In this document: positions 60 to 60,253 of the stretch, in pieces | How the letters are laid out: each line of letters opens with the position of its first letter | How positions within the stretch are numbered: position 1 is the stretch's first letter | Assembly: GCA_943736015.1 (NCBI GenBank) | Contig: OX031062.1 | Coordinates: 31,593,462-31,657,461 of the forward strand | Reading direction: 5' to 3' | Source: Tridacna crocea | Lineage: Eukaryota; Mollusca; Bivalvia; Cardiida; Cardiidae | DNA: 64,000 nt | Made by a program: the position numbers and the translations under genes | Notes under the pieces: generated by a model | Databases searched by the model: none | What the model was told of the DNA's origin: nothing | What the model saw: the letters and a program-made list of their open reading frames with translations, nothing else

Positions 60-1540
60 TATTTGTACAAACTTAACCACCAGACAGAACATCTTCAGTG
101 TATTTTCACGCTAGCATACGTTCAGTGTAGACCCAAGATCAAACAGCATATTTTAGCTGTCTGATTTTGATCTACTGGCTTCAAGAGTTACTGTAGTTGA
201 AGGTCAACTGTCATTATGCTTTTCAAATGGCTCTTTCATCAAGGTTGAGTTAAAATTTATTAAGAGGGAAGCTTTTTTTTCTGGCAGCTGTCAGTAGCAT
301 AATAACTATCCTTGACTTTTTTCTAATCAAAATTATTTTTATTTGGCTTGTCATGTTTTTTGACTGCTGTAAAACATTTTCATTAATAATCGTTCAATTT
401 TGTGATAGCTTTTTATCCCATCGCAGAAGGATACATGTACAAAATACGGTTGTGAGAAGGAAAGTATCTGAAAATATGCAAACTTTGGTAACCAGATAGG
501 TGTGTAGCACTGGTAAACAATTCTATGTATTAATAAGTCTGGGCAACAGTTTAAAAAAAAAATGGGAGGAGGAAAAAATGATTTACTCTATAAACAGACA
601 TTTTTCCAGTTTCCCATAATGTTTTTACCCTTTCACAGACAATATCATTAATAGTCCTACATCATGTTGTCTGCTGTGTGTGATTATTCTTACAATATAG
701 TTTATAAGAGCTGTGCACACTGCACAAAAGGGCAAAAAAAAAAATCTGGAAAGCTTACATAGTAAAACGGGAAATGGGAAAAGTCGGTTCATACAGAGAA
801 ATGGCTTTCAAGACCAATCTGCCTGTGAAAACCTGTGTCCTATTTATTGATTATTGGTGTTATGGCTCACATTTCAAGAAGTCGGCTATCAAGTTCCTAA
901 TTTTGGGCTCACGGCTATTATGTAGTAGGCCTTTTGTTTCTCCGACCCATTACCACATGGATAATTTTTGGGTGTAGCAAGGAACATTAAGAATTTCATA
1001 AAAGAAAAAATATAGAAGACATATAAAATATTTGGTGTGTAGTTCAACAGCATGGAGAACATGGGTGTTGAGGTTACAAGTACTGGTTCTTACAAGCAAA
1101 TTATTGCTCTTTTTCCAACAATGTTTTTCAGTGCTGTGAAATAAGGGAGAGGGGGTAAAAATTTTGCACAGCCTGTTAAAACTAGATGACACAAATGAAA
1201 TAAATGCAGATCATTAAATTTTGATGGAGCTAAAGTCAAGTTTTGAACCCAATAAAAAAGTTTCCCATAAATTTTAGCAGGCAATGAATTTAAAATTGAT
1301 ACAAATGTGCTTGAGTTCTCTGATATGGTTGAAAACAAGTTAAGATGAATAGTTGCTGCTTACTAGGTTTTTCTGCTTTTCCCGCAGTAGGCCTAAATGC
1401 TTTCTCAGGATTGTAAAAGTCCTGATTGTTTAGTAGGGAATTTATGATGGCATATGGCAAATATTTTGAGCAGTTGGTGGTCATGTTTCTATACACATGT
1501 ATTTCACCAGATATATTTACTGTGATTTTTGGGTTGTTTG
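60..1540. other. Non-coding stretch with repeat relics
   Basis: I see no convincing gene here. Around 130-175 there is a worn TH-E hairpin (GATCAAACAGC / GCTGTCTGATTTTGATC). Around 596-645 and 1106-1145 there are fragments of the right half of TH-A (CCCATAATG..TTTACCCTTTCACAGAC and TTTTTCCAACAATG). The short reading frames have no recognisable domain and overlap on both strands. Confidence 0.5.
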
Positions 1541-1546
1541 GATTAA

Positions 1547-1775
1547 CACTTTACTGCACAATGCTGACTTTTGACCTTGGGAAAGGAGTTTAAAAACATT
1601 GTGGAAAAAGCAGAAAATGCTGGTCAAAGTAGAAAAGCCTAGAAACCAACTTTTTCTGCTTTTCTAGTAATGTTTTCTACGATTTTAAAGACAAATCCAA
1701 TAGTTTCTGTAAGAGTTACTTCTTGTCTGCAAAATGCTCACAATTTAGACCAGTATGAAATTTTGTTGTCTGCCA
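1547..1775 (-). mobile_element. TH-A element, diverged
   Basis: TTAA at 1543-1546 precedes CACTTTACTGCACAATGC, and the hairpin region has AACATTGTGG and AATGCTGG. The loop is enlarged by about 30 bp carrying its own TAGAAAAGC / GCTTTTCTA pairing. The right end near the TCTGCCAGAGG stretch is poorly preserved. Confidence 0.6.
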
Positions 1776-1934
1776 GAGGTTTTAGGAGGTGGTGAAATAT
1801 GGTGAAAAGTCAAATCATAAATTTAGTTTTGAGTTAGTTGATTCAAAATTAGTTCTGTAAATTGTGTTCTGTTAAGGTTATGTTTAATTTGAACGCTGTG
1901 ACAAGCTGTAAGATACAAATTTGTTTAATAGTGT

Positions 1935-2479
1935 CTCTATTTAGCTCTATGGAAGGACAAAACTTTAGACTGAGCCAAATTGAACTCTTTACCACACAAC
2001 ACTGACTTTTAACGACCCCTAGGAAGAGGCCTATTGAAAACATTATATGAAAATACGGAAATGCTGGTATCCAGCATTTTCTCCTTTTCATGCAGTGTTT
2101 TCTACCCAATAGAAGGGAAGTTTCATCATTTAAGTCACACTAAAATTGTCGTCTTCGAATTCGAATTTGGATAGGTCTAACATTCTGTTGTGTGGTAAAG
2201 AGTTAAACATTTGTTACTAAGATGAAAAACTGTTTCAAAAAGTGAAGTTGACTTTGGAACAGTTGTAAACACTGGGGAAAAGAGAAAATTGTGATTACCA
2301 GCAATTTCTCCTTCTTTTCTGCAATGTCAGACCAATGGTGACCAGCATTTTCTCTTCTTCCTACAAAGTCTTTTTACTCTTTGAAGGACAAATTTCATCA
2401 TTTTGTAATTCGTTTAATTCGTTGTCTGCATTTGCTTTCAATTTGGACAATACTAAAATTTTTATTGTCTGGTAAGGAG
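1935..2479 (+). mobile_element. TH-A element interrupted by another TH-A
   Basis: The left piece at 1935-1983 (GGACAAAACTTTAGACTGAG then CCAAATTGAA) stops at the next element. The same copy appears to resume at 2207 (ACATTTGTTACTAAGATG corresponds to GCATTTGCAGACGAC). Two successive hairpin remnants follow (2265-2330 and 2335-2375), and it ends at TTAA 2480-2483. The composite is old and diverged, so the internal assignment is tentative. Confidence 0.5.
1984..2202 (-). mobile_element. TH-A element nested at TTGA
   Basis: It begins CTCTTTACCACACAACAC after TTGA 1980-1983 and ends TGTGGTAAAGAG before TTAA 2203-2206. The hairpin is AAATGCTGGTATCCAGCATTT. It sits inside the AAATTGAAAGCA motif of an older TH-A copy, so the original target was probably TTGA or a mutated TTAA. 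Confidence 0.7.
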
Positions 2480-2483
2480 TTAA

Positions 2484-2704
2484 CCCATTACCACACAATC
2501 CCTACTTTTGATGCCCCTGAGAAAGAAACCTTTAGAAAACATGGTGGGAAAAGGAGAAAATGCTGGTAACCAGCATTTTCTCCTTTTCCCACAATGTTTT
2601 CTACCCTTCACAAAACAAATCTCAAATTTTCAGTCACTTTTATTTTGTCATCTGCAAATGCTTTCAATTTGGACAAGCCTTAAATATTGTCGTTTGGTAA
2701 TGAG
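2484..2704 (-). mobile_element. TH-A element, full length
   Basis: It shares TTAA 2480-2483 with the preceding copy and ends at TTAA 2705-2708. It starts CCCATTACCACACAATCC. The hairpin stem is intact (AAAATGCTGGTAACCAGC and complement) and the right arm keeps the GTCATCTGCAAATGCTTTC motif. One of the less diverged copies. Confidence 0.85.
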
Positions 2705-2708
2705 TTAA

Positions 2709-3700
2709 AGTTAGGACCCTATTTACCAACCCATCAAAGAGTTTTTGAATTCGGGGAGTAGAATTTTGATGGGGTGAGACAATGTATCATGCACATATTC
2801 ATGCTCTAGCATGTAACATGTTCATGCTTCATCATTTTTCCAAAATTACACTGTTTAGTAAAACTTCTGCAAAGTAAGATAAACCATAAAAGCAGAATAC
2901 ATGTAATTTCGACATGGGAGCCCTGGCGAAAGTATTTCATAATTCTCCATGGAAAAGTATTGATGCTTATCTCAGTGAACAGGATATTGTTAAACTAAAA
3001 GCACAGATCTGAGGATAAATTCACCACTCATTCAAATTGCTTTTCTGTCTTAGAATAAAGAAAAAATGATCTGTCTGATTGACTAGGATGAAATGGACTG
3101 AGAAAAGAGTATGGGGGGGGGATTCTTGAATACAGCCCTTGCTTCCTAACTTGTTCACCAGTATGAAAGATTTACTTATGATTTACATGTACTTTGATAT
3201 TAGTTATTTGCTACTCTTAACAAGGCTTTGACCCTGTGAGTGCCTATTTGATCCAACATTATTTAATTATTGCAATTCCATGGTTGTTTTTGTTAACAGT
3301 GTAGCAGGGAAAACCACAGTGAATATCAAAAGATCAGGGTACTGGTTTTGTGCAGCCTGATCTTGATCTACACTGGCTAGAAAGGCACAATGTTAGTGAA
3401 AGGGTTTCAATGGTTAATGGAGTTTGCTACTTGAAAATAGTAATTATTGAAAAAAAGATGTTTTATCAGCAAGAATTAGTCTGAATACCAGTTTGCACTG
3501 TATTTCATTGAAAGTACATTGTAAAATGTTCACACTATTTACAAAATCATTGAATCTGTGGTATTGATATTTTAGTTGAGAGATAGTATTGAATACCATT
3601 TAATACGCAGAAGTAAGATTGACGTCATTGTCTTTTTTTCAATAATCATATCAATTTTTACACTATACTGGATGCATAATGCATTTTATTTTAGGGACAA
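2709..3700. other. Non-coding stretch
   Basis: No gene is supported. A G-run lies at about 3113-3121. A worn TH-E-type hairpin lies at 3318-3385 (GATCAGG...CCTGATCTTGATCTACACTGG). The rest is AT-rich sequence without recognisable repeats. Confidence 0.5.
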
Positions 3701-3706
3701 AATTAA

Positions 3707-3928
3707 CCCTTTACCCAATAAGGCATTTCTAAGATATCTCAAATTGACCCTAAATAACAGCAAGGATGAAGCCATTTCTTACGTGTATAATGACACCTTT
3801 TGATAGCATAGAAAACATTGTGACAAAAGGTGAAATTGCTCGTCACGAGCAATTTCACCTTTTGCCACAGTGCTTTCAAAAGGCTCTCACAAGCAATGCG
3901 TAGAAATGAGTATCTATGGAGTAAAGGG
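3707..3928 (+). mobile_element. TH-B element, full length
   Basis: TTAA at 3703-3706 and 3929-3932. The ends are CCCTTTACCCAATAAGGC and TCTATGGAGTAAAGGG. The hairpin reads GACAAAAGGTGAAATTGCTC / GAGCAATTTCACCTTTTGCC. Its arms share nothing obvious with TH-A, but the GAAAACATTGTG outer stem and the termini match. Confidence 0.85.
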
Positions 3929-4087
3929 TTAATAGAAATGAACAAAAATACTGGAACTTAGAAATTGATTAAATGGACAGTATTTCCTTAGAAAATGTGC
4001 TGTTTTATTCTGACAAAGTATTTGTTTTACAATTTGTCAGGTACATGTATTTGATTAGTTTTTCATCATACATATGCCTAAAGATGA

Positions 4088-4290
4088 ACCCTTTACTGAT
4101 CAATCCTGTGTTTTTTAATGCTAGTGAGGAAGAAGACTGAAAGATATGGTAAAGGAGAAAATGCTGTTATATACCCACCATTTTTTCCATCTCCAATTCC
4201 CATGATCTTTTCTTACCTTTGTGTGGGAAAGGGTAATAATTTTCAAATCAGCAAGTCTGAAAATTTGTCATCTGTTAAAGCAAGTGGCTA
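4088..4290 (-). mobile_element. TH-A relic
   Basis: It begins CCCTTTACTGATCAATCC and has AAAGGAGAAAATGCTG, but the opposite hairpin arm is badly decayed. No clear TTAA is seen on the right; the body fades near 4285. Confidence 0.5.
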
Positions 4291-4849
4291 GCGTAGAAAG
4301 TAGATTCTCTGTTCCATTTGAACAAGACTGGACTTTTTTCTCTCCAATAATGCATAATTGATGAAAGTTGATTGTATTGGCAGGCAACCTTGGCTAGAAT
4401 CTTCAATAACAAGCACAACAGAGTTTGTTCGCATAGAAATATTCCCTGTTCACTGTAACTACCTTTTATTACTTAGTATTGATTAGTGATTAAACCGTCT
4501 TAATTAAGTCTTTTTAACTTGTTGGCCAAGCCACCCATTTAAGTTGAATTACAGAGCATTTTGTTTCATTAAAAAAAGAGTATTACATAATCTTTATTAT
4601 GGCAGGGTTTTTTTTTTTTCATACAATTTTAACAATACCTAGGATTTAGGTCAACATCAGCACTTTTCTATTGACCGCATAAATCATAGAGGAAGGATGT
4701 TTTAATATACTGATGAGGAAATTGCTGTGGCAAAAGCAGTGTTTGCTCCATTTTTCTCAGTGTTTCAAAAGTTGTACACTCAATGACTCAAAGCGCAGAG
4801 GTTCTGCATTGCACAGGGATCGTATAGTGGAGTTCAAAACCTAATGGCC

Positions 4850-4912
4850 CTGGGTTTTAGTGACCAGCATGTTCACCTTTTTTTCTACAATGTCTTCTAT
4901 CCATTCAAAGTG
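4850..4912 (-). mobile_element. TH-A right-half fragment cut by the next element
   Basis: The sequence GACCAGCATGTTCACC then ACAATGTCTTCTATCC matches the right hairpin arm of TH-A. It stops at TTAA 4913-4916, where an intact copy begins, as expected if the later element inserted into it. Confidence 0.5.
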
Positions 4913-4916
4913 TTAA

Positions 4917-5130
4917 CTTTTTACCAAACAAGCCCTAATTTTTTACAACTGGGCAGAAAAGGTTTTAAAAACCTTGTGGGAAAAGGAGAAAATGCTGGTA
5001 TCAGCATTTTCTCCTTTTCCCGCAAGGTTTTCTATCCTTTCAGAGACAAGTTTTAGAAATTTAAACATTTTTGTTGTCTGCAGGCACTTTCAGTATGGAC
5101 CAGTTTGACATTATTTCATTTGCTAAAGGA
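4917..5130 (-). mobile_element. TH-A/C-like element, full length
   Basis: TTAA at 4913-4916 and 5131-5134. The start CTTTTTACCAAACAAGCC resembles the TH-C right arm; the body has TTGTCTGCAGGCACTTTC. The hairpin is GTGGGAAAAGGAGAAAATGC with a short TGGTA loop. Confidence 0.75.
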
Positions 5131-5469
5131 TTAAAATGTAGAATATTGCATAGGTGAGTGAGATGAGAAATGTCAATTCTTAATATAAAAGCTGAAAATT
5201 AAATTCTTTTAGAGCATCCTATATTTCATTAGTCTTGTGCAATGCAAATTAATAGATAAAAATACAATGAAAAGAAGTCAATACAGAGTTTGGCAGCTTA
5301 ATTATTCTCCCAACAAAGTAGTAGTTGATCTGGGAATAAGACAGCAATGGTTCTCATACAGAATCTCAAAGCAAAGACACTGCAGAAAGAGTAGATCATA
5401 GATCAGGTTGTACGTTGGTTTAGTCTGTATTTGATCTACACTGGCTTCAAAGGCAAAGACCGGAAAGGT

Positions 5470-5929: not shown

Positions 5930-6445
5930 ATTGGCAGACTAATTACATTAGCCATACTTTTAAGCGTTATGCATCAAATATGCCTACATTTTGACTTCTA
6001 AACTGTTTACTTTTAGGAGAAAGTCGGCCTTTAATAAGAATATAAACTTATAGAATTACGACATGTGATATCCCTTTAGCCCCTCTCTTTCTTTTTATGT
6101 CTCTGGAATTCTTCTTATTTTTATTTGTGTTTGATTTTTTGACAGACATTGAAAAATTAAACTATGTGAAAAAAAAAATGTACATAAATAATATATATAT
6201 TATTATGTTTTAAGTGTGCACTGCATGTTTATGTGTTAAGCATTTATACAAGACTGAACAAAGTTTGGTTATAAATGCCCTATATACTCTGTAAAACTGA
6301 ATTAAGATTAGATGCGTTGCTTTTATGTCACAAAACAAGTTTTTTACATCTTGGCATTACAGTATTTTTTTTGTCTATTCAAAACCCATTTATTGTAGAT
6401 CAGCTTAATCAATCCAGATTACAAGAACTAGGGACATATCATCAA
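5930..6445. other. Non-coding AT-rich stretch
   Basis: No gene or clear repeat is visible apart from a short TA-rich run at about 6188-6206. The small reading frames found here lack any recognisable feature. Confidence 0.5.
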
Positions 6446-6522
6446 TTTACTTCAAAAACCATGTAACTACAGTTTGTAGCAAGCTGTAGTTACAAGGTTT
6501 TTGAAGTAAACAGTTTACTGAT
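6446..6522. mobile_element. Short foldback element, family I
   Basis: An inverted repeat: TTTACTTCAAAAACCATG...GGTTTTTGAAGTAAAC, with CTGTAGTTAC paired in the inner part. Pairing extends outward as ATATCATCA / TGATGATAT. A second copy is at 58,703-58,758, so this is a dispersed family. Confidence 0.6.
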
Positions 6523-6899
6523 GATATGAAAGAAAAAGAAAATACATACATGTATCTTCTTCAAATGGTTTAGAAATTGCTGGGAATAAGCATGATTTTT
6601 TTTTTCTCTTAGTTATTAAATTGTCAGTTTCCTACAGTGTTTTCAAAATCCATTATCAATTCTGCAAGGAGTGAAGGATTCATTTAGTGACATAAAGGGC
6701 TAAAAAAAGAGTAGAGGTAGAGTCAGTAGTTCTTGAATTTTATTTGCCTTCAAAGAGAAACATTTTGACATGACATGATGTAATCTGTCAGCCAGTCAGA
6801 ATGATTATCTTTATATTTTTTTAGTGGAAAAAGAAAGATGAAAAGCACTAATTGTGGTATAAGATGACAATAATGACCTTGAAATGTTTGACTTTATTA

Positions 6900-10869: not shown

Positions 10870-13768
10870 CACCATTTTTAGCTCACCTGAGCACGAAGTG
10901 CTCATGGTGAGCTATTGTGATCGTGCTGTGTCTGTTGTCTGTCGTCAACTTCTTACCTTGTGTACACTCTAGAGGACACATTTTCAGTCTGATACTCATG
11001 AAAGTTGGTCAGGATGTTTGCCTTGATAAAAACTCGGACGAGTTCAAAAATAGGTCATGTCGGGTCAAAAACAAGGTCACTAAGTCAAATTTTAGAAAAA
11101 CCTTGTGTACGCTCTAGAGGCCACATTTTCAGTTGGATACTCATGAAAATTTGTCAGGATGTTTGCCTGGATAATATCTCAAACAAGTTCAAAAATGGGT
11201 CATGTTAGGTCAAAAACTAGGTCACTAGGTCAAATCTTAGAAAAACCTTGTGTACGTTCTAGAGGCCACATTTTCAGTCAAAAACTCCTGAAAGTTCTTC
11301 AGAATGTTTGTCTTGATGATATCTCGGACAAGTTTGAAAATGGGTCATGTCAGGTCAAAAACTAGGTAAATTAGGTCAAATTTTAGAAAAACCTTGTGTA
11401 CGCTCTAGAAGCCACATTTTCCGTCCCGATACTCATGAAAGTAGGATATATGCCTGGATGATATCTTGGACAAGTTTGAAAATGGGTCAAAAACTAGGTC
11501 ACTAGGTCATATCTTAGAAAAACCTTGTATATGCTCTAGAAGCCACAATTTCAGTCCAAAACTCTTAAGTTGGTCAGAATGTTTGTCTTGAGGATATCTC
11601 TGACAAGTCCGAAAATGGTTTATGTCAGATCAAAACTAGGTCACTAGGTCAAATTTTAGAAAAACCATGTGTACAATCTAGAGGCCACATTTTCAGTCCG
11701 ATACTCGTGAAAGTTAGTCAGGATGTTTGCCTCGATGATATCTAGGACGACCTTGAAAATTGGTCATGCCAGGTAAAAAACTAGGTCACTAGGTCAAATC
11801 TTACAAGTTTGGAAACGGATCAAAAACTAGGTCACTAGGTCATATCTTAGAAAAACCTTGTATATGCTCTAGAAGCCACAATTTCAGTCCAAAACTCTTA
11901 AGTTGGTCAGAATGTCAAAAACTAGGTCACTAGGTCATATCTTAGAAAAACCTTGTATATGCTCTAGAAGCCACAATTTCAGTCCAAAACTCTTAAGTTG
12001 GTCAGAATGTTTGTCTTGAGGATATCTCTGACAAGTCCGAAAATGGTTTATGTCAGATCAAAACTAGGTCACTAGGTCAAATTTTAGAAAAACCATGTGT
12101 ACAATCTAGAGGCCACATTTTCAGTCCGATACTCGTGAAAGTTAGTCAGGATGTTTGCCTCGATGATATCTAGGACGACCTTGAAAATTGGTCATGCCAG
12201 GTAAAAAACTAGGTCACTAGGTCAAATCTTACAAGTTTGAAAATGGATAAAAAACTAGGTCACTAGGTCATATCTTAGAAAAACCTTGTATATGCTCTAG
12301 AAGCCACAATTTCAGTCCAAAACTCTTAAGTTGGTCAGAATGTTTGTCTTGAGGATATCTCTGACAAGTCCGAAAATGGTTTATGTCAGATCAAAACTAG
12401 GTCACTAGGTCAAATTTTAGAAAAACCATGTGTACAATCTAGAGGCCACATTTTCAGTCCGATACTCGTGAAAGTTAGTCAGGATGTTTGCCTCGATGAT
12501 ATCTAGGACGACCTTGAAAATTGGTCATGCCAGGTAAAAAACTAGGTCACTAGGTCAAATCTTAGAAAAACCTTGTGTAAGCTGTAAAGGCCACATTTTC
12601 AGTCAGATACTCATGAAAATTGGTCAGGATGTTTGTCTGGATGATATCTAGGACAAGATCGAAAATGGGTCATGTTGGGTCAAAAACTAGGTCAAATTTT
12701 AGAAAAACCCTGTGTACGCTCTAGAGGCCACATTTTCAGTCCAAAACTTGTGAAAGTTGTTTAGAATGTTTGTCTTGATGATACCTCAAACAAGTTCGAA
12801 GATGGGTCATGTGGGGTCAAAAACTAGGTCACTAGGTCAAATCTTAGAAAAAACCTTGTGTACGGTCTAGAGGCCACATTTTCAGTCCAAAACTCTTGAA
12901 AGTTGGTCAGAATATTTGCCTTTATGATATCTTAGACGAATTCAAAAATGGGTCATGTGGAGTCAACAACTATGTCACTAAGTCAAATGTTCGAAAAACC
13001 TTTTGTAGGCTCTAGAGGCCACATTTTCATCCCAAAACTCTTGTAAGTTGGTCAGAATGTTTGCCTTGATGATATATTAAATGAGTTTGAAAATGGGTCA
13101 CTGGTGGTTAAAAACTCGGTCACCAGGTCAAATCTTAGAAAAAACCTTGTATATGCTCTGAATGCCACATCTTCAGTCCAACACTCTTGAAAATTAGTCA
13201 GAATGTTTGCCTTTACAATATCTTGGATGACTTTGAAAATGGGTCATGTTGGGTCAAAAACTGGGTCAATAGGTCAAATGTTATAACCTTTTGTATGCTC
13301 TGGAGGACATTTTCAGTCTGATACTCCTAAAACTTGTTCATAGTATTTGTCCTGGTGATACCTTGAATGAGTTTGAAAATGGATCATGTGGAGTCAAAAA
13401 CTAGGTCAATGGGTCAAATATTAGAAAAACCTTGTGTACACTCTGGAGGCTACATTTTCTGCCTGATACTCTTCAGACTTGGTTAGAGTGTTTGTTTTGG
13501 TGATGTCTCAAAAGAGTTTGATAACGGGTAATTGTCGGGTCCAAAACTAGGTCACTTGGCGAAATCTTAAAAAAACCTTTTGTACTCTGTAGAGGCCACG
13601 TTTTCAGTCCAATACTCATGAAATTTAGTCAGAATGTTTGTCTTATTGATATCTCAAAAGTGTTTGATGATGGGTAATGTCTGATAAAAACTAGGTCACT
13701 GGGAAACTAGATGGTTCATGATCAAAAGACTCAGGTGAGCGATTTCAGGGCCATCATGGCCCTCTTGC
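10870..13768 (+). mobile_element. Helentron-like element HL1
   Basis: The left end is TAGCTCACCTGAGCACG, containing a palindrome closed by GGTGAGCTATTGTGATCG. The right end is CTCAGGTGAGCGATTTC followed by a GGGCCATCATGGCCC hairpin and TCTTG. CTCACCTGA and TCAGGTGAG are sub-terminal inverted repeats. Between them is a tandem array. This layout (no terminal inverted repeat, sub-terminal inverted repeats, end hairpin, central repeats) is that of non-autonomous Helentron-type elements described in bivalves. No Rep/helicase gene is present. The superfamily is inferred from structure only. Confidence 0.7.
10940..13700 (+). repeat. About 145-bp tandem array inside HL1
   Basis: Units contain CTAGGTCACTAGGTCAAATC, AGAGGCCACATTTTCAGTC and GATGATATCTCGGACAAG. 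The CACATTTTCAG landmark recurs at 10,977, 11,122, 11,267 and 11,413 (145, 145, 146 bp). A roughly 295-bp dimer is repeated almost unchanged at about 11,509, 11,935 and 12,268, with a truncated unit between the first two. Divergence increases toward the right end. Short plus-strand reading frames across it are by-products of the repeat. Confidence 0.85.
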
Positions 13769-16305: not shown

Positions 16306-16637
16306 TTTTTTCCTAGATTTTCTGCGATCTGTGTGCGGGGCCACAGACACTTGTTTTTGTCTCATGTAACTATATGCATGTATATAATATATATACACAC
16401 ACGTACGACTGAAAGACAATGTGTTACAACTACAATGCTCTCGTAATTTGTTAGTATTTTTCGCATATTTCTAAACTTGGATGAAAAAGACTTTACTTTT
16501 ATTGTGTCCTCCGATATCTAATCGCCGATCCGATACATGTGTAGAACGGAACAAATGTGTAAAATATTAAAGATGCTGCAGAGTCGGAACCAGTATCTTC
16601 TCAAGTGCCTGTAGGAGAATACAAAAAAAAAGTACGT

Positions 16638-16815
16638 ATTCACCAACCATCCTTTAGAATTTTATGATACCTATTCTCCAAGATATTTCTAAATTTAAAA
16701 TTAACACAACTTTTGATTGGCAAAGCCAAATGGTTTCGCCAATCAGAAATTGTGTTACTTTTAGAGTTAGAAAATACTGAAGAATAAGACAAAGAATATA
16801 TATAGCTATTTTTTT
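16638..16815. mobile_element. Palindromic MITE, family G
   Basis: GTATTCACCAACCATCC at the left, and a centre TTTGATTGGCAAAGCC / TTTCGCCAATCAGAAATTG forming a foldback. Arms contain CTATTCTCCAAGAT and ACTGAAGAATAAGAC. The right terminus is not clear. Family G is better preserved at 42,262-42,456. Confidence 0.6.
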
Positions 16816-20310: not shown

Positions 20311-22032
20311 AGCTCACCTTAGCACAAAGTGCTAAAGGTGAGCTATTGTGATCGCCCTATGTCCGTCGTCCGTCAACAATTGCTTTAAACATCTTCTCTT
20401 CCTAAGCCACTGGACCAATCTTCATGAAACTTGGCAGGAATGTTCCTTGGGTGAAGCTCTACCAAATTTGTTCGAATAATTTAATTCCACCCAAAACTCT
20501 GGTTGCTATGGCAACAAAAAGAAAAAAAAAAAAAAAAACCCCGAAACTCCCAAGTTTGTTCAAATTATATCCTTAGGGTCAAAACTGGCCCCGCCCCGGG
20601 GGATAACGAGTTTGAGCATAGGAACAAAGAAGGAAAACTTAAAAAAAATCTTCTTCTCTGAAACTTGAATGCGTAGAGCTTTGATATTTGGTATGTAGCA
20701 TCTCCTAGTGGAACTCTACCAAGTTTGTTCATATTATATCGATCCCTGGGGTCAAACACCGGCCCCACCCCAGGGATCACAAGTTTGAGCATAGGAACAA
20801 AGAAGGAAAACTTTAAAAGTCTTCTCCTCTGAAACTTGAAGGCGTAGAACTTTGATATTTAGTATATGACATCTCCTAGCGGACCTCTACCAAGTTTGTT
20901 CAAATTATGCCTCTGGGGTCAAAACTGGTCCCAATCCGGGGGTCACAAGTTTGAGCATAGGAACAAAGAAGGAAAACTTTAAAAATCTTCTGCTCTGAAA
21001 CTTGAAGGCGTAGAGCTTTGATATTTGGTATGTGGCATCTCCTAGTGGACCTCTATCAAGTTTGTTCAAATTATGTCCCTGGGGTCAAAACTTGCCCCAC
21101 ACGGGGATCACAAATTTGAGCATATTAACAAAGAAGGAAAACTTTAAAATTCTTCTCCTTTGAAACTAGAGGGCACAGAGCTTTGATATTTGGTATGTGG
21201 CATCTCCTAGTAGGCCTCTACCAAGTTTCTTTAAATCATGCCCGTGGGGTCAAAACCGGCCCCGCCCCGGGGGTCACAAGTTCGAACATAGGAACAAAGA
21301 AAGAAAATTTTAAAATTCTTTCCTAAAACTAGAAGGCATAGAGCTATAATATTTGGCATGTAGCAATTCCTAGTGGATCTCTACCAAGTTTGTTCATATT
21401 ATGCCCTTGGGGTCTAAACTGGCCCTGCCCCCGGGGGGGGGTCACAGGTTCGAACATAGCAACAAAGAAGGAAAACTTTAGAAATCTTCTCTGAAACGTG
21501 AAGGTGCAGAGCTTCGATATTTGGTATTCAGAATCTTCTAGTGGATCTCTACCAAGTTTGGTCATATGATGTCCCTGGCGTCAAAACTGGCCATGCCCCG
21601 GAGGTCACAGGTTGGAACATAGGGACAAAGAAGGAAAATTTTAAATTTCTTTTTGTCTTAAACGGGAAGGTGTAGAGCTTTGATACTTGGTATGTAGCAT
21701 CTTTGAGTGGACCTCTACCAAGTTTGCTCCAAGGATGCTGCTTTGGTTAAAACTGACCCAGCCCCGGGGACCACAAGTTCGAACATAGGACAAAGAAGGA
21801 AAATTCAAAATTCTTCTTTGAAACTGGAAGGTGTAGAGCTTTTATATTTGATTGCCCTATGTCCGGCGTCTGTTGCCCGTCATCAATTTCTTTAAACATC
21901 TTCTCCTCCTAACCCACTGGGCCAATCTTGATGAAACTTGGCAGGGATGTTTCTTGGGTGAAGCTTCACCAAAGTTGCTGAAAGAATTGAATTTCAGTCA
22001 TAAGCTATAGTCCAGGGCCAATGGCCATCTTG
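20311..22032 (+). mobile_element. Helentron-like element HL2
   Basis: Left end TAGCTCACCTTAGCACAAAG with a palindrome closed by AAAGGTGAGCTATTGTGATC. Right end GTCCAGGGCCAATGGCC followed by ATCTTG. The first 20 bases after the hairpin resemble HL1 although the internal repeats are unrelated. The segment GCCACTGGACCAATCTTCAT near the left recurs near the right (GCCACTGGGCCAATCTTGAT... written there as CCCACTGGGCCAATC), so the array is bracketed by a shared flank. Confidence 0.7.
20450..21840 (+). repeat. About 166-bp tandem array inside HL2
   Basis: Eight registers of a unit containing GAAGGAAAACTTTAAAAATC, TTGATATTTGGTATGTGGC and GGTCAAAACTGGCCCCGCCC. The GAGCATA/GAACATA landmark falls at 20,614, 20,787, 20,953, 21,118, 21,284, 21,452, 21,615 and 21,781. 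Spacings are 163-173 bp. Confidence 0.85.
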
Positions 22033-27123: not shown

Positions 27124-27255
27124 TGGCGAGCCTTGGTAGCTCAGTGGGTAGCGTGCAGGACTTGAGAAAAGGGGGTCCTGGATTTGATCCTTGGCTCTGC
27201 CAATTTCTTTCCGAGGATATATGATAGTCATTGTGACAGGATTCATTCCTCTCCC
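27124..27255 (+). mobile_element. tRNA-headed SINE
   Basis: A box TAGCTCAGTGGGTAGCGTGC and B box GGATTTGATCC are well spaced for a tRNA-derived polymerase III promoter. The anticodon arm region (GACTTGAGAAAAGGGGGTCC) is abnormal and the 3' end does not pair with the 5' end, so this is a SINE. The tail runs through GACAGGATTCATTCC. Confidence 0.6.
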
Positions 27256-27989: not shown

Positions 27990-28044
27990 TTAAAAGTCAA
28001 GGCATTTCAATACCTTTGTTTACTTTTGGAAGACATTATTCCTT

Positions 28045-28320
28045 TAGCCCTTTACCTCATCCTCGGATACCCCGGGGTCTCCCTATTTGCTACGCTACAT
28101 CGATGTAGCGTAGCAAATAGGGAGACCCTGGGGTATCCGAGGATGTTTACCTATAGACAAACTTTAAGACTGCATCAAGTTCAAAGACAAGCAGATGACA
28201 AATCAAGGATGGCTCAAACGATGAAACTTGCCTTTGAGTGGAAAACATTATGAAAAAAGATGTTAATTACTAGCATTTATACCTTTCCATACAATGATTT
28301 CAACAGCCATCATAATAATA
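28045..28320 (+). mobile_element. TH-A2 relic interrupted by an 88-bp palindrome
   Basis: Outside the palindrome the sequence reads GCCCTTTACCT + ATAGACAAACTTTAAGACTG, which matches a TH start such as that at 57,009 (CTCTTTACCTATAGAC). The rest (AAGCAGATGACAAATC, GAAAACATTATG, TTACTAGCAT) is a worn TH-A body. Confidence 0.65.
28058..28145. mobile_element. 88-bp near-perfect palindrome with 7-bp target duplication
   Basis: The left arm CATCCTCGGATACCCCGGGG... and right arm ...CCTGGGGTATCCGAGGATG are complementary over the entire 44 bp per arm, with one mismatch (G versus A). The centre is ACATCGATGT. TTTACCT is duplicated at 28,051-28,057 and 28,146-28,152. The flanks join into a normal TH terminus when one duplicate is removed. 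It has no internal non-palindromic sequence. I see no second copy in the window. Confidence 0.85.
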
Positions 28321-28331
28321 AGGTCATTTAA

Positions 28332-29390: not shown

Positions 29391-31120
29391 CAAGAGGGCC
29401 AAGATGGCCCTGGATCGCTCACCTGAATTTTTGAGAGGACCATAGCCTTTTATTTTGAAGAAATTGAAAAACTGGAAACAAAATCATTATTTTGCCAAGC
29501 AATTTTTAAAAGGACACTTGTAAAAGTCCCTTCAAAATCTGACCGGCAGTTTCAGAAAAGAAGAATATTTAGGCATTTCTTGATTTCCGTACAGTGCAAG
29601 TAGCCCCCATTCACCAGAGCCATGTTTCTTGACACATCAAAATTTCACATTCAAATTTTGAAAAAGGTCATTCAAGGAATATTTCCGTGAAACAGTTTTC
29701 AAATCTGACTAGCCGTTTCAGAGAAGAAGAATTTTCAAGAAATTCTTCATTTCCATATAGTGCAAGTAGCCCCCATTCACCACAGCAATGTTTCTCGACA
29801 AATCAAACTTTCACGAACACTTTTTGAAAAGGGTCACCCAAGGAATATCTCTCTGAAAATTATCCAAAATCTGACCAGCCGTTTCAGAGAAGGAGAATTT
29901 TTAAGAATTTCTTCATTGCCCTATAGTGCAAGTAGCCCCTATTCACCAGAGCCATGTTTCTTGACAGATCAAAATTTCACGAACAATTTTTGAAAAGGGT
30001 CATCCAAGGAACATCTCTGTGAAATTATTTCAAAATCTGACCAACGGTTTCAGAGAAAAAGAATTTTTAAGAATTTCTTCATTTCCCTATAGCACAAGTA
30101 GTCCCCATTCACTAGAGCCATGTTTCTTGACACATCAAAATTTTGTGAACAACTTTTGACAAGGGTCACCCAGGGAACATCTCTGTGAAATTATTTCAAA
30201 ATCTGACCAGCGGTTTCAGAGAAGAAGAATTTTTAAGAATTTCTTCATTGTCCTATAGTGCAAGAAGCCCCAATTCACCAGAGCCATGTTTCTTGACAAA
30301 TCAAAATTTTATGAACATTTTTTGACAAGGGTCATCCAAGGAACATCTCTGTGAAATTATTTCAAAATCTGACCAGCGGTTTCAATGAAAAAGAATTTTT
30401 AAGAATTTCTTCATTTCCCTATAGCACAAGTAGCCCCCATTCACTAGAGCCATGTTTCTTGACACATCAAAATTTCGTGAACAATTTTTGACAGGGGTCA
30501 CCCAAGGAACATCTCTGTGAAATTATTTCAAAATCTGACCAGCGGTTTCAGAGAAGAAGAATTTTTAAGAATTTCTTCATTGCCCTACAGTGCAAGAAGC
30601 CCCAATTCACCAGAGCCATGTTTCTTGACGAATCAAAATTTTACGAACATTTTTTGACAAGGGTCACCCAAGGAACATTTCTGTGAAATTATTTTAAAAT
30701 CTGGCCATCGATTTCAGAGAAGAAGAACTTTTAAGAATTTCTTCATTTCTGTACAGTGCAAAAAGCCCCCATTCACCAGAGCCGTGTTTCTTGACGGATC
30801 AAAATTTTGCGAACAAATTTTGAAAAGGGTCACCCTAGGAACATCTCTGTGAAATTATTTTAAAATCTGGCCAGCGGTTTCAGAGAAGATTTTTAAAGAA
30901 TTTCCTAAAAAATTCCATTTCGTTGCCATGCCAACCAGAGTTTTTGACAGAATCAACTTCTGTGAACAATTTTTAAAGAGGACCTCCCAAGGAACATTCC
31001 AGCCAAGTTTGGTCCAAATTGGCCCAGCAGTTTAGGAGGAGTTGATGTTAAAGAATTGTTGACGACGCACGGTGGACGATAGACACCGGGTGATCTTAAA
31101 AGCTCCCCTTGGGTGAGCTA
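29391..31120 (-). mobile_element. Helentron-like element HL3
   Basis: In minus orientation it starts TAGCTCACCCAAGGGGAGC and ends with a GGGCCATCTTGGCCC hairpin then TCTTG. CAGGTGAGCGATCC lies just before the hairpin, matching HL1. The 5' 200 bp are non-repetitive; the rest is a tandem array. No Rep/helicase coding sequence. Confidence 0.7.
29510..30900 (-). repeat. 166-bp tandem array with exact spacing
   Basis: The ATGTTTCTTGAC landmark or its variant occurs at 29,622, 29,788, 29,954, 30,120, 30,286, 30,452, 30,618 and 30,784, each exactly 166 bp apart. Units differ by scattered substitutions (for example CACCACAGCAATG versus CACTAGAGCCATG). Alternate units share variants (GCAAGAAGCCCCAATTC at 30,261 and 30,592; GCACAAGTAG at 30,093 and 30,425), hinting at a 332-bp dimer. 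Confidence 0.9.
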
Positions 31121-33393: not shown

Positions 33394-33614
33394 CCCATTA
33401 CCACACAATCCCTACTTTTGACGCCCCTAAGAAAGAAGCCTTTAGAAAACATTGTGGGAAAAGGAGAAAATGCTGGTTACCAGCATTTTCTCCTTTTCCC
33501 ACAATGTTTTCTACCCTTCATGAAACAAATTTTAATTTTTCTGTCACTTTTATTTTGTCGTCTGCAAATGATTTCGATTTGGACAAGTCTAAAATAATGT
33601 CGTCTGGTAATGAG
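33394..33614 (-). mobile_element. TH-A element, full length
   Basis: First of three head-to-tail copies. TTAA at 33,390-33,393 and 33,615-33,618. Hairpin fully paired (AGAAAATGCTGGTTACCAGC). Confidence 0.85.
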
Positions 33615-41300: not shown

Positions 41301-41311
41301 TCAAGGATACT

Positions 41312-41503
41312 CAGAGCTCCAGATAAGAGGGAGTAATGATATTCTAAATCCATTATTTCTCTTCGAAACCCTATGTTGTGGGTACTCATTAGAATCGTCT
41401 CGATGAGATGATTCTAATGAGTACCCACAACATAGGGTTTAGTGGAGAATAATAAAGATTTTCAGTTTTGAAATCAAAATCACTCCCTCTATCTGGAGCT
41501 CCG
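41312..41503. mobile_element. Palindromic MITE, family F, copy 1
   Basis: 192 bp with termini CAGAGCTCCAGATA and TATCTGGAGCTCCG. A long inner stem CCTATGTTGTGGGTACTCAT / ATGAGTACCCACAACATAGG closes on GAATCGTCTCGATGAGA. GATACT is duplicated at 41,306-41,311 and 41,504-41,509. Confidence 0.85.
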
Positions 41504-42070: not shown

Positions 42071-42178
42071 TAGGGTCTGTATTCACCAACCATTCTAAAG
42101 AACGTTCTTTGTCTTATTCTTCAAGATTTTCTGACACTGTGAAAGTAGCAGAACTTCTGATTGGCTAAACCATTTGGT
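42071..42178. mobile_element. Family G half-copy
   Basis: GTATTCACCAACCATTC to GATTGGCTAAACCATTTGG, stopping at the palindrome centre, where the duplicated SINE segment begins. It is the left half of the element at 42,262. Confidence 0.7.
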
Positions 42179-42261
42179 CACATACATCAGAGGTCAGAAA
42201 TGAAAACTGCCTCAGTGAAAGTTTGTCTCAACCAGGTATCAAACTCACAACCACTAGGGAC

Positions 42262-42456
42262 GGTATTCACCAACCATTCTTAAGACCATTCTTTGCTTTG
42301 ATCTTCAAGATTTTCTGTGAAAGTAACAAAACTTCTGTTTGGCTAAACCATAAAAATGGTTTAGCCAATCAGAAGTTCTGTTACTTTCACACTGACAAAA
42401 TTCTGAAGAATAAGACTAAGAATGTTCTTAAAAATGGTTGGTGAATACAGACCCAG
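42262..42456. mobile_element. Palindromic MITE, family G, complete
   Basis: Termini GTATTCACCAACCATTCTTA and AATGGTTGGTGAATAC are inverted repeats. Inner stem TTGGCTAAACCA / TGGTTTAGCCAA and GAAGTTCTGTTACTTTCAC. It lies between the A and B boxes of the SINE, which is interrupted there. About 195 bp. Confidence 0.8.
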
Positions 42457-43460: not shown

Positions 43461-43550
43461 TCATCTTATCAGAAGTGGTTCAGAAAGGTGTAGAATTTTA
43501 ATTACAAATTAATCCTATGTTGTGAGTACTCATAAATTGTATTAATTACC

Positions 43551-43742
43551 CAGAGCCCCAGATTAGAGGGAGTGATGGTATTTTAAATTCATTATTTCTC
43601 TTCCAAACCCTATGTTGTGGGTACTCATTGGAATCGTCTCGATGAGACAATTCTAATGAGTACCCATAACATAGGGTTTAGGAGAATAATTAATATTTTC
43701 AATTTTGAAATCAAAATCACTGCCTCTATCTGGAGAGCTCTG
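43551..43742. mobile_element. Palindromic MITE, family F, copy 2
   Basis: 192 bp; termini CAGAGCCCCAGATTAGAGG and CTCTATCTGGAGAGCTCTG. Stem as in copy 1. No target duplication is recognisable. A stray piece of the same stem (CCTATGTTGTGAGTACTCAT) sits just upstream at 43,514. Confidence 0.8.
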
Positions 43743-46475: not shown

Positions 46476-46698
46476 CCCATTACCACACAATCCCTACTTT
46501 TGATGCCCCTAAGAAAGAGAAGCCTTTGGAAAACATTGTGGGAAAAGGAGAAAATGCTGGTTACCAGCATTTTCTCCTTTTCCCACAATGTTTTCTACTC
46601 TTCACAAAACAAATTTCAAATTTTCAGTCACTTTTATTTTGTCGCCTGCAAGTGCTTCCAATTTGGACCAGTCTAAAATATTGTCGTTTGGTAATGGG
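46476..46698 (-). mobile_element. TH-A element, full length
   Basis: TTAA at 46,472-46,475 and 46,699-46,702. Starts CCCATTACCACACAATCC; hairpin perfect. A 2-bp insertion is present in AAGAAAGAGAAGCC. Confidence 0.85.
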
Positions 46699-54233: not shown

Positions 54234-54426
54234 CAGAGCTCCAGATAGAGGGAGTGATTTTTATTTCAAAGTTGAAAATATCAATCATTCTCCACCAAAA
54301 CCCTATGTTGTGGGTACTCATTAGAATCGTCTCAAGGAAACGATTCTAATGAGTACCCACAACATAGGGTTTTGAAGAGAAATGATGCATTTAGAATGCC
54401 ATCATTCCCTCTTATCTAGAGCTCTA
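54234..54426. mobile_element. Palindromic MITE, family F, copy 4
   Basis: 193 bp; termini CAGAGCTCCAGATAGAGG and CTCTTATCTAGAGCTCTA. Stem CCTATGTTGTGGGTACTCAT intact on both sides. Inverted relative to copy 1 internally. No exact target duplication. Confidence 0.8.
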
Positions 54427-54436
54427 CATCCTATTT

Positions 54437-54655
54437 TACCTCTTCACCGCAATGACAAAATCTTAGAGCCGTCTCCATCTGAAAGCACCTGCAGACGAAA
54501 ATTTCAAAGTGGCTCAAATGATAGTAGTTTTCTTTGATATGAGTACAAAACAGAGTGGGAAAAGAGTGGTTTCCAATATTTTCTCCTTTTCCCATAATAT
54601 TTTCTACAGTCTACCTCTTCAAGGTCAAAAAGGCTGGTATTGTGCTGTAAAGGTT
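54437..54655 (+). mobile_element. TH-A2 element, diverged
   Basis: CCTCTTCACCGCAATGAC, GACGAAAATTTCAAAGTGGC, then a hairpin with the left stem reduced to GGGAAAAGAGTGGTTTCC. Ends GTGCTGTAAAGG. Confidence 0.6.
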
Positions 54656-60032: not shown

Positions 60033-60253
60033 CTCTTTACTAGCGGACAAACTTTTTAATACATCCATGTTGAAAGCATTTGCAATAGACTGATTAATTG
60101 TGGCTTAAATTATTAGATTTGTCTTTCACTGGGAAGAAAACATTGTGGGAAAAGGAGAAAATGCTGGTTACCAGCATTTTCTCCTTTTCCCACAATGTTT
60201 TCAAAAGCCCTCTATCTCAGGATTGCTAAAACATGGGATTACATAGTAAAGTG
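60033..60253 (+). mobile_element. TH-A2 element
   Basis: TCAA 60,029-60,032; CTCTTTACTAGCGGACAAAC, hairpin fully paired (GTGGGAAAAGGAGAAAATGC). Ends TACATAGTAAAGTG before TTTA. Confidence 0.75.

Follow-up and report, generated by a model that had tools for sequence, protein, structure and literature searches.

Structure and location of the palindrome

We analysed a 64,000-nucleotide stretch of the genome of the bivalve Tridacna crocea (assembly GCA_943736015.1, contig OX031062.1, positions 31,593,462 to 31,657,461; hereafter the window), in which an 88-bp inverted repeat is located at positions 28058-28145. The repeat consists of two 44-nt arms with a single mismatched pair and no spacer, and both its coordinates and its structure are as claimed in an earlier note made from the sequence alone. 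The left arm (28058-28101, plus strand) is the first 44 nt of the 60-bp terminal inverted repeat of a family of longer elements, to which it is identical, and the right arm (28102-28145, minus strand) carries the only unpaired position, T at 28129 opposite G at 28074. Because the expected number of such palindromes in 64 kb is ~5e-20, a chance origin is excluded. The GC content of the insert is 56% versus 35-37% in the surrounding 2-kb bins, and its RNA is predicted to fold at -87.2 kcal/mol, 17 standard deviations below shuffled sequences (z -17). No second copy was found within the window at up to 3 mismatches.

The heptamer TTTACCT directly adjoins the palindrome on both sides (28051-28057 and 28146-28152), as had been noted. 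When the flanks were joined at one TTTACCT, they aligned across the join, weakly (~68% identity), with two places of a repeat termed TH (28744-28378 and 46709-46529). The earlier claim that removal of the insert restores a TH terminus thus holds, and the host site is the end of a diverged TH copy at 28043-28325 (approximate, by eye). A 20-nt piece of the arm had no match in collections of viral and prokaryotic DNA and a piece of the TH repeat had none in a viral DNA collection, which says little as the window looks eukaryotic. Its repeats appear similar to those of marine bivalves.

Dispersed copies and their target duplications

The assembly to which the window belongs (1.05 Gb, 31 contigs) was searched for the palindrome. 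Its exact central 32 nt is present at 86 places, and a 26-mer of the arm gave 2156 forward and 2106 reverse matches, with 0 for the reversed control. The whole 88-mer was scored at 40 places on 15 contigs, all of which align along 87 or 88 bp with 99-100% identity (better strand); these places come from 1102 first-look candidates and are therefore biased to near-identity. Among the 40 first-scored copies, window copy included, 31 have an exact 9-bp target duplication. Adding copies chosen by their centre to these near-identical ones gave 66 distinct copies whose flanks were read; the 9-bp duplication is exact in 45 of them and has one mismatch in 10. The palindrome is thus short and noncoding, bears terminal inverted repeats, is flanked by a duplication of fixed length and occurs in many dispersed copies, as is characteristic of miniature inverted-repeat transposable elements (MITEs). 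No literature report was found that matches words of the arm sequence or a palindromic hairpin MITE with a 7-bp target site, although repeat databases may contain the family.

That a mobile element had inserted as a unit, as the earlier note claimed, is borne out by these copies with their target duplications and by longer elements with the same ends (see below). The note had proposed a genome search for the arm, expecting many dispersed copies with 7-bp duplications; the copies were found, but the duplications are 9 bp long. Because the family makes 9-bp duplications and the left flank in the window reads CCTTTACCT, the 7 bp seen there are probably the remnant of an eroded 9-bp duplication. 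On this reading, the left duplication is CCTTTACCT at 28049-28057 (plus strand), its length taken from the family, and the right one has lost its leading CC and retains TTTACCT only (28146-28152, plus strand).

Two other explanations lose most of their appeal in view of these copies. The single copy in the 64-kb window would fit an isolated palindrome or an artefact of assembly, which the earlier note expected to show itself by the lack of any other copy in the genome; this is refuted by the 86 places with the exact centre and by the independent sites with duplications, and we give it next to no credence. The strength of the predicted fold, together with the description of human MADE1 as the origin of hsa-mir-548 (PMC1784062), would be in keeping with a hairpin kept for an RNA product, as a precursor of microRNA or small interfering RNA, and spread by that role. 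However, no Rfam family reaches its gathering score in the window, and transposition alone explains the dispersal with 9-bp duplications; we regard this explanation as very improbable.

Longer relatives and the deletion junction

Longer relatives with the same ends are 255-363 bp in length, mainly ~258 and ~363 bp. They were drawn from the first 100 arm places listed, all on one contig (C1), among which 24 neighbouring arm pairs span 238 bp (one pair), 258-263 bp (15), 362-367 bp (6), 1993 bp (one) and 5316 bp (one). The remaining 52 arms have no exact partner; where they fell among the first 30 loci, a partner with changes lay close by. Inverted repeats of 60 bp were measured in a 258-bp form (L060). 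All of the 19 longer elements that were read are flanked by a 9-bp duplication, exact in 17 and with one mismatch in two.

In local comparison, positions 28058-28103 of the window are 100% identical to nt 1-46 of a 363-bp element (L048), and also to a 258-type element, while positions 28100-28145 are 100% identical to nt 318-363 of L048. The two L048 matches overlap by TCGA (28100-28103), which is common to both ends at the join. Since both halves of the palindrome match the ends of L048, the 88-mer represents element ends whose interior was removed at a 4-bp microhomology.

Taken together, the identity with the ends of longer elements, the dispersal, the 9-bp duplications and the few dominant size classes (see below) make it very likely that the palindrome is a non-autonomous DNA transposon, a MITE, which was reduced to its termini by deletion and then moved with 9-bp duplications. 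Interrupted repair following excision is the usual explanation for internal deletions of this kind. In the proposed course of events, a deletion between breakpoints sharing TCGA, presumably via interrupted repair, would have removed the entire interior of a parent with 60-bp terminal inverted repeats, together with the inner portions of these repeats. The two 44-nt ends left back to back would retain what a transposase acting in trans requires, and the 88-mer itself would then have moved to new sites, making a 9-bp duplication each time.

A longer autonomous element with the same ends had also been named in the earlier note as possible support; longer elements exist as the 258- and 363-bp forms, but an autonomous one was not found in the searches made. 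Both long candidates were rejected as autonomous parents. The 5316-bp one (L078) is a 363-type copy containing a DIRS-like interior with its own inverted repeats, a retrotransposon at about 177-5131 with long frames coding for reverse transcriptase and tyrosine recombinase, and the 1993-bp one (L079) is a 363-type element interrupted by ~1.6 kb. DIRS elements are described as integrating without target duplications (PMC3266345). The ends of the present family carry a 9-bp duplication, and its assignment to the DIRS retrotransposons was likewise rejected.

Candidate source of the transposase

Mutator-like elements (MULEs) make target duplications of 8-11 bp, usually 9 bp, and have long inverted repeats. 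The 9-bp duplication of the family falls within this range, and the genome contains 61 matches to the MULE transposase domain, 55 of them without internal stop and 18 at an identical score of 41.1 bits. One of these 18 lies in a MULE-like structure at 736-4009 of L111, where inverted repeats of ~180 bp surround a 515-aa frame. Merlin, with an IS1595-type transposase, is an alternative candidate by duplication length, with 5 partial matches in the genome. The ends of the family read CATCCTCGG. No transposase was linked to the family in the searches made here; because of the 9-bp duplication and the long inverted repeats, we propose a MULE as its source.

Size classes and arm haplotypes

Collapsed forms of 76-91 bp occur at 183 places, and among the 50 listed, 29 are of 88 bp, 18 of 91 bp and 3 of other lengths. 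Of the 29 listed 88-bp forms, 20 have the exact centre, a one-arm variant is common to 8 and 1 is different, and 16 of the 18 listed 91-bp forms have the same centre. The range of 94-109 bp holds 15 places, 14 of which have a 94-bp centre, and the ranges of 56-71 and 112-127 bp hold 2 places and 1 place, respectively. These lengths are judged from the centre, with flanks read for the 88- and 91-bp forms, and the search patterns left gaps at 33-55, 72-75, 92-93 and 110-111 bp. The spacer is 0 in the 88-bp form and, judged by its centre, in the 94-bp form, and 3 nt in the 91-bp form. If one mismatch is tolerated and the boundary may be displaced by up to 2, 9-bp duplications are present in 9 of 12 copies of the 91-bp form and in 7 of the 8 88-bp variant copies, the eighth (L131) needing a shift of 2 on both sides.

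Because the lengths cluster at 88, 91 and 94 bp rather than being spread, the size spectrum suggests, as its best fit, a few deletions that later multiplied. The 94-bp centre could have given the 88-bp centre by losing one TCGACG unit. The arms extend to position 44 or 47 of the repeat, such that 44+44, 47+44 and 47+47 give 88, 91 and 94 bp; from this it is conceivable, though doubtful, that collapsed elements multiply via a hairpin or folded single-strand intermediate with opening and trimming of its tip, as imprecise processing of the tip would yield such forms.

Perfect palindromes make up 23 of the first 40 copies, and an identical asymmetric sequence is shared by 8 (that of the window and seven others). 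Arm position 17 is A on one fixed side in 6/6 and G on the other in 5/6 of the 363-type elements (two of which are interrupted). In the 258-type elements (n = 15) it is G on both sides in 13, G/A in one and A/A in one. The 88-mers (n = 46) are G/G in 35 cases and G/A in 11; these and the divergence counts below draw on the 50 listed of the 86 places with the 88-bp centre, from which L081, L082, L107 and L110 were set aside as length or structure variants. The mismatch in the window is therefore probably inherited, judging from these haplotypes, which perhaps reflects collapse occurring more than once. Since the 363-bp relatives carry it, the comparison of the arms does not date the window insertion. 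The near-identity of the arms had been taken earlier as a sign of youth or arm homogenisation, a suggestion undercut by the same asymmetry in seven other copies and the 363-bp relatives. More generally, arm comparison appears unsafe for dating palindromic elements, as the sole mismatch here seems to be inherited.

Transposition or collapse in place

Alternatively, the 88-bp copies may be immobile: longer elements would have inserted, and their inverted repeats would have collapsed in place at TCGA, with the 9-bp duplication staying behind. We consider this unlikely. It would lead one to expect a spread of lengths, but 88, 91 and 94 bp dominate. The exact 32-mer predicted from the longest homology within the repeats (ACCCCGGGGT, 10 bp) has 0 matches in the genome, a search for one exact sequence, and the 112-127-bp range, into which an AATT join would fall, holds 1 place. 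In addition, 8 of the 29 listed 88-mers share the one-arm variant, which occurs once among 19 mate arms from long elements.

Several observations nevertheless weigh against deletion followed by transposition. The duplications are alike in long and collapsed forms, the asymmetric 88-mers (11/46) fit the haplotype of the six 363-type elements, and the symmetric ones (35/46) fit 13 of the 15 258-type elements, as if collapse had recurred. Collapsed forms of lengths other than 88, 91 and 94 bp do occur, once each among the places listed, showing that collapse is possible elsewhere in the repeats. The divergence of the outer arm is 1.4% per site in the 88-mers versus 3.1% in the 19 longer elements (2.3% without L054, which has an indel), a comparison whose sample is too small to separate transposition from in-place deletion. 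In 11 of the 66 copies, the expected boundary shows no 9-bp duplication even when one mismatch is allowed. Among them, the window copy has 7 bp and L042 has 8 bp; L081, L082 and L107 have an 8-bp match with a shifted boundary and are apparently one-base length variants; L016 and L024 are altered at the duplication boundary, and L103 has two mismatches; L031, L095 and L110 have no duplication visible by inspection. With respect to the transposase, the ends of the family were not found at four MULE loci (L111-L114; 4 of the 61 matches, 4.5-5 kb read at each), two strict patterns combining the family's ends with another interior had 0 matches in the genome, and both long candidates (L078 and L079) are 363-type elements into which unrelated sequence has inserted.

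We nonetheless favour deletion followed by transposition. The 88- and 91-bp forms occupy many sites, and the 9-bp duplications there are normal; on the evidence of these sites, 44 nt of each end without any interior may suffice for movement.

Other repeats in the window

In the 64 kb, the TH hairpin repeat, which is unrelated to the 88-mer, occurs at 69 places that differ from a 67-nt hairpin by no more than 22 mismatches (e.g. 33443-33513, 46529-46595 and 60136-60202). Some of its copies are perfectly palindromic, and several variants alter both arms together. In 61 of the 69 copies, the less diverged ones, 58 double changes were counted versus 29.0 expected under independence, and 46 of the 58 preserve pairing. 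The excess falls largely at a few columns which look like subfamily differences; it decides the matter of homogenisation neither way and was not used here.

Two other families in the window have a foldback-like appearance along most of their length. One is found at 41310-41500, 43545-43735 and 54237-54440 (approximate), with ends CAGAGCTCCAGAT and an inner hairpin AAACCCTATGTTGTGGGTACTC with a 3-nt loop. The other is located at 42073-42454, with 16633-16800 perhaps related; its ends resemble GGGTCTGTATTCACCAACCATTC and its inner hairpin is nearly loopless. A foldback with a 3-nt loop at 6430-6529 has no relative among the other listed hairpins of the window. A tRNA-like stretch at 27129-27202 with A- and B-box-like motifs (by eye) is perhaps the head of a short interspersed nuclear element; ARAGORN reported no tRNA in the window. 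Long tandem arrays with units of ~145-166 bp are located at 10955-13700, 20550-21850 and 29531-30889.

Comparison with known systems

Foldback (FB-like) elements have a snap-back structure, and the arms of classic FB elements are long and built of subrepeats. The palindrome described here has the snap-back structure in common with them, but subrepeats were not seen in its 44-nt arms. It resembles MULE MITEs in its 9-bp duplication and long inverted repeats (60 bp in this family), and MULE domains are present in the genome; unlike in MULE MITEs, no MULE with these ends was seen among the four loci read. Mariner MITEs of aphids are described as products of internal deletion whose breakpoints show microhomology, and abortive gap repair is given as the cause (PMC5490172). 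Breakpoint microhomology is likewise found here, as TCGA, whereas the parents found are themselves non-autonomous.

The human element MADE1 belongs to mariner and has a TA target. It is described as a nearly perfect palindrome in which 6 bp separate two inverted repeats of 37 bp (PMC1784062). Like the window element, it is ~80 bp long, has near-identical repeats and almost no interior, and derives from a longer inverted-repeat transposon (PMC1784062). MADE1 is a close precedent for a MITE consisting almost entirely of a hairpin; with this precedent and the two other foldback-like families in the window, the earlier view that an element made of a hairpin only is unusual loses weight. MADE1 retains its 6-bp interior (PMC1784062), whereas the spacer here is 0 or 3 nt and the duplication is 9 bp. 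In contrast to the case of MADE1, forms of ~363, 258, 94, 91 and 88 bp coexist here in one genome, which makes the family a natural test of the minimal DNA transposon.
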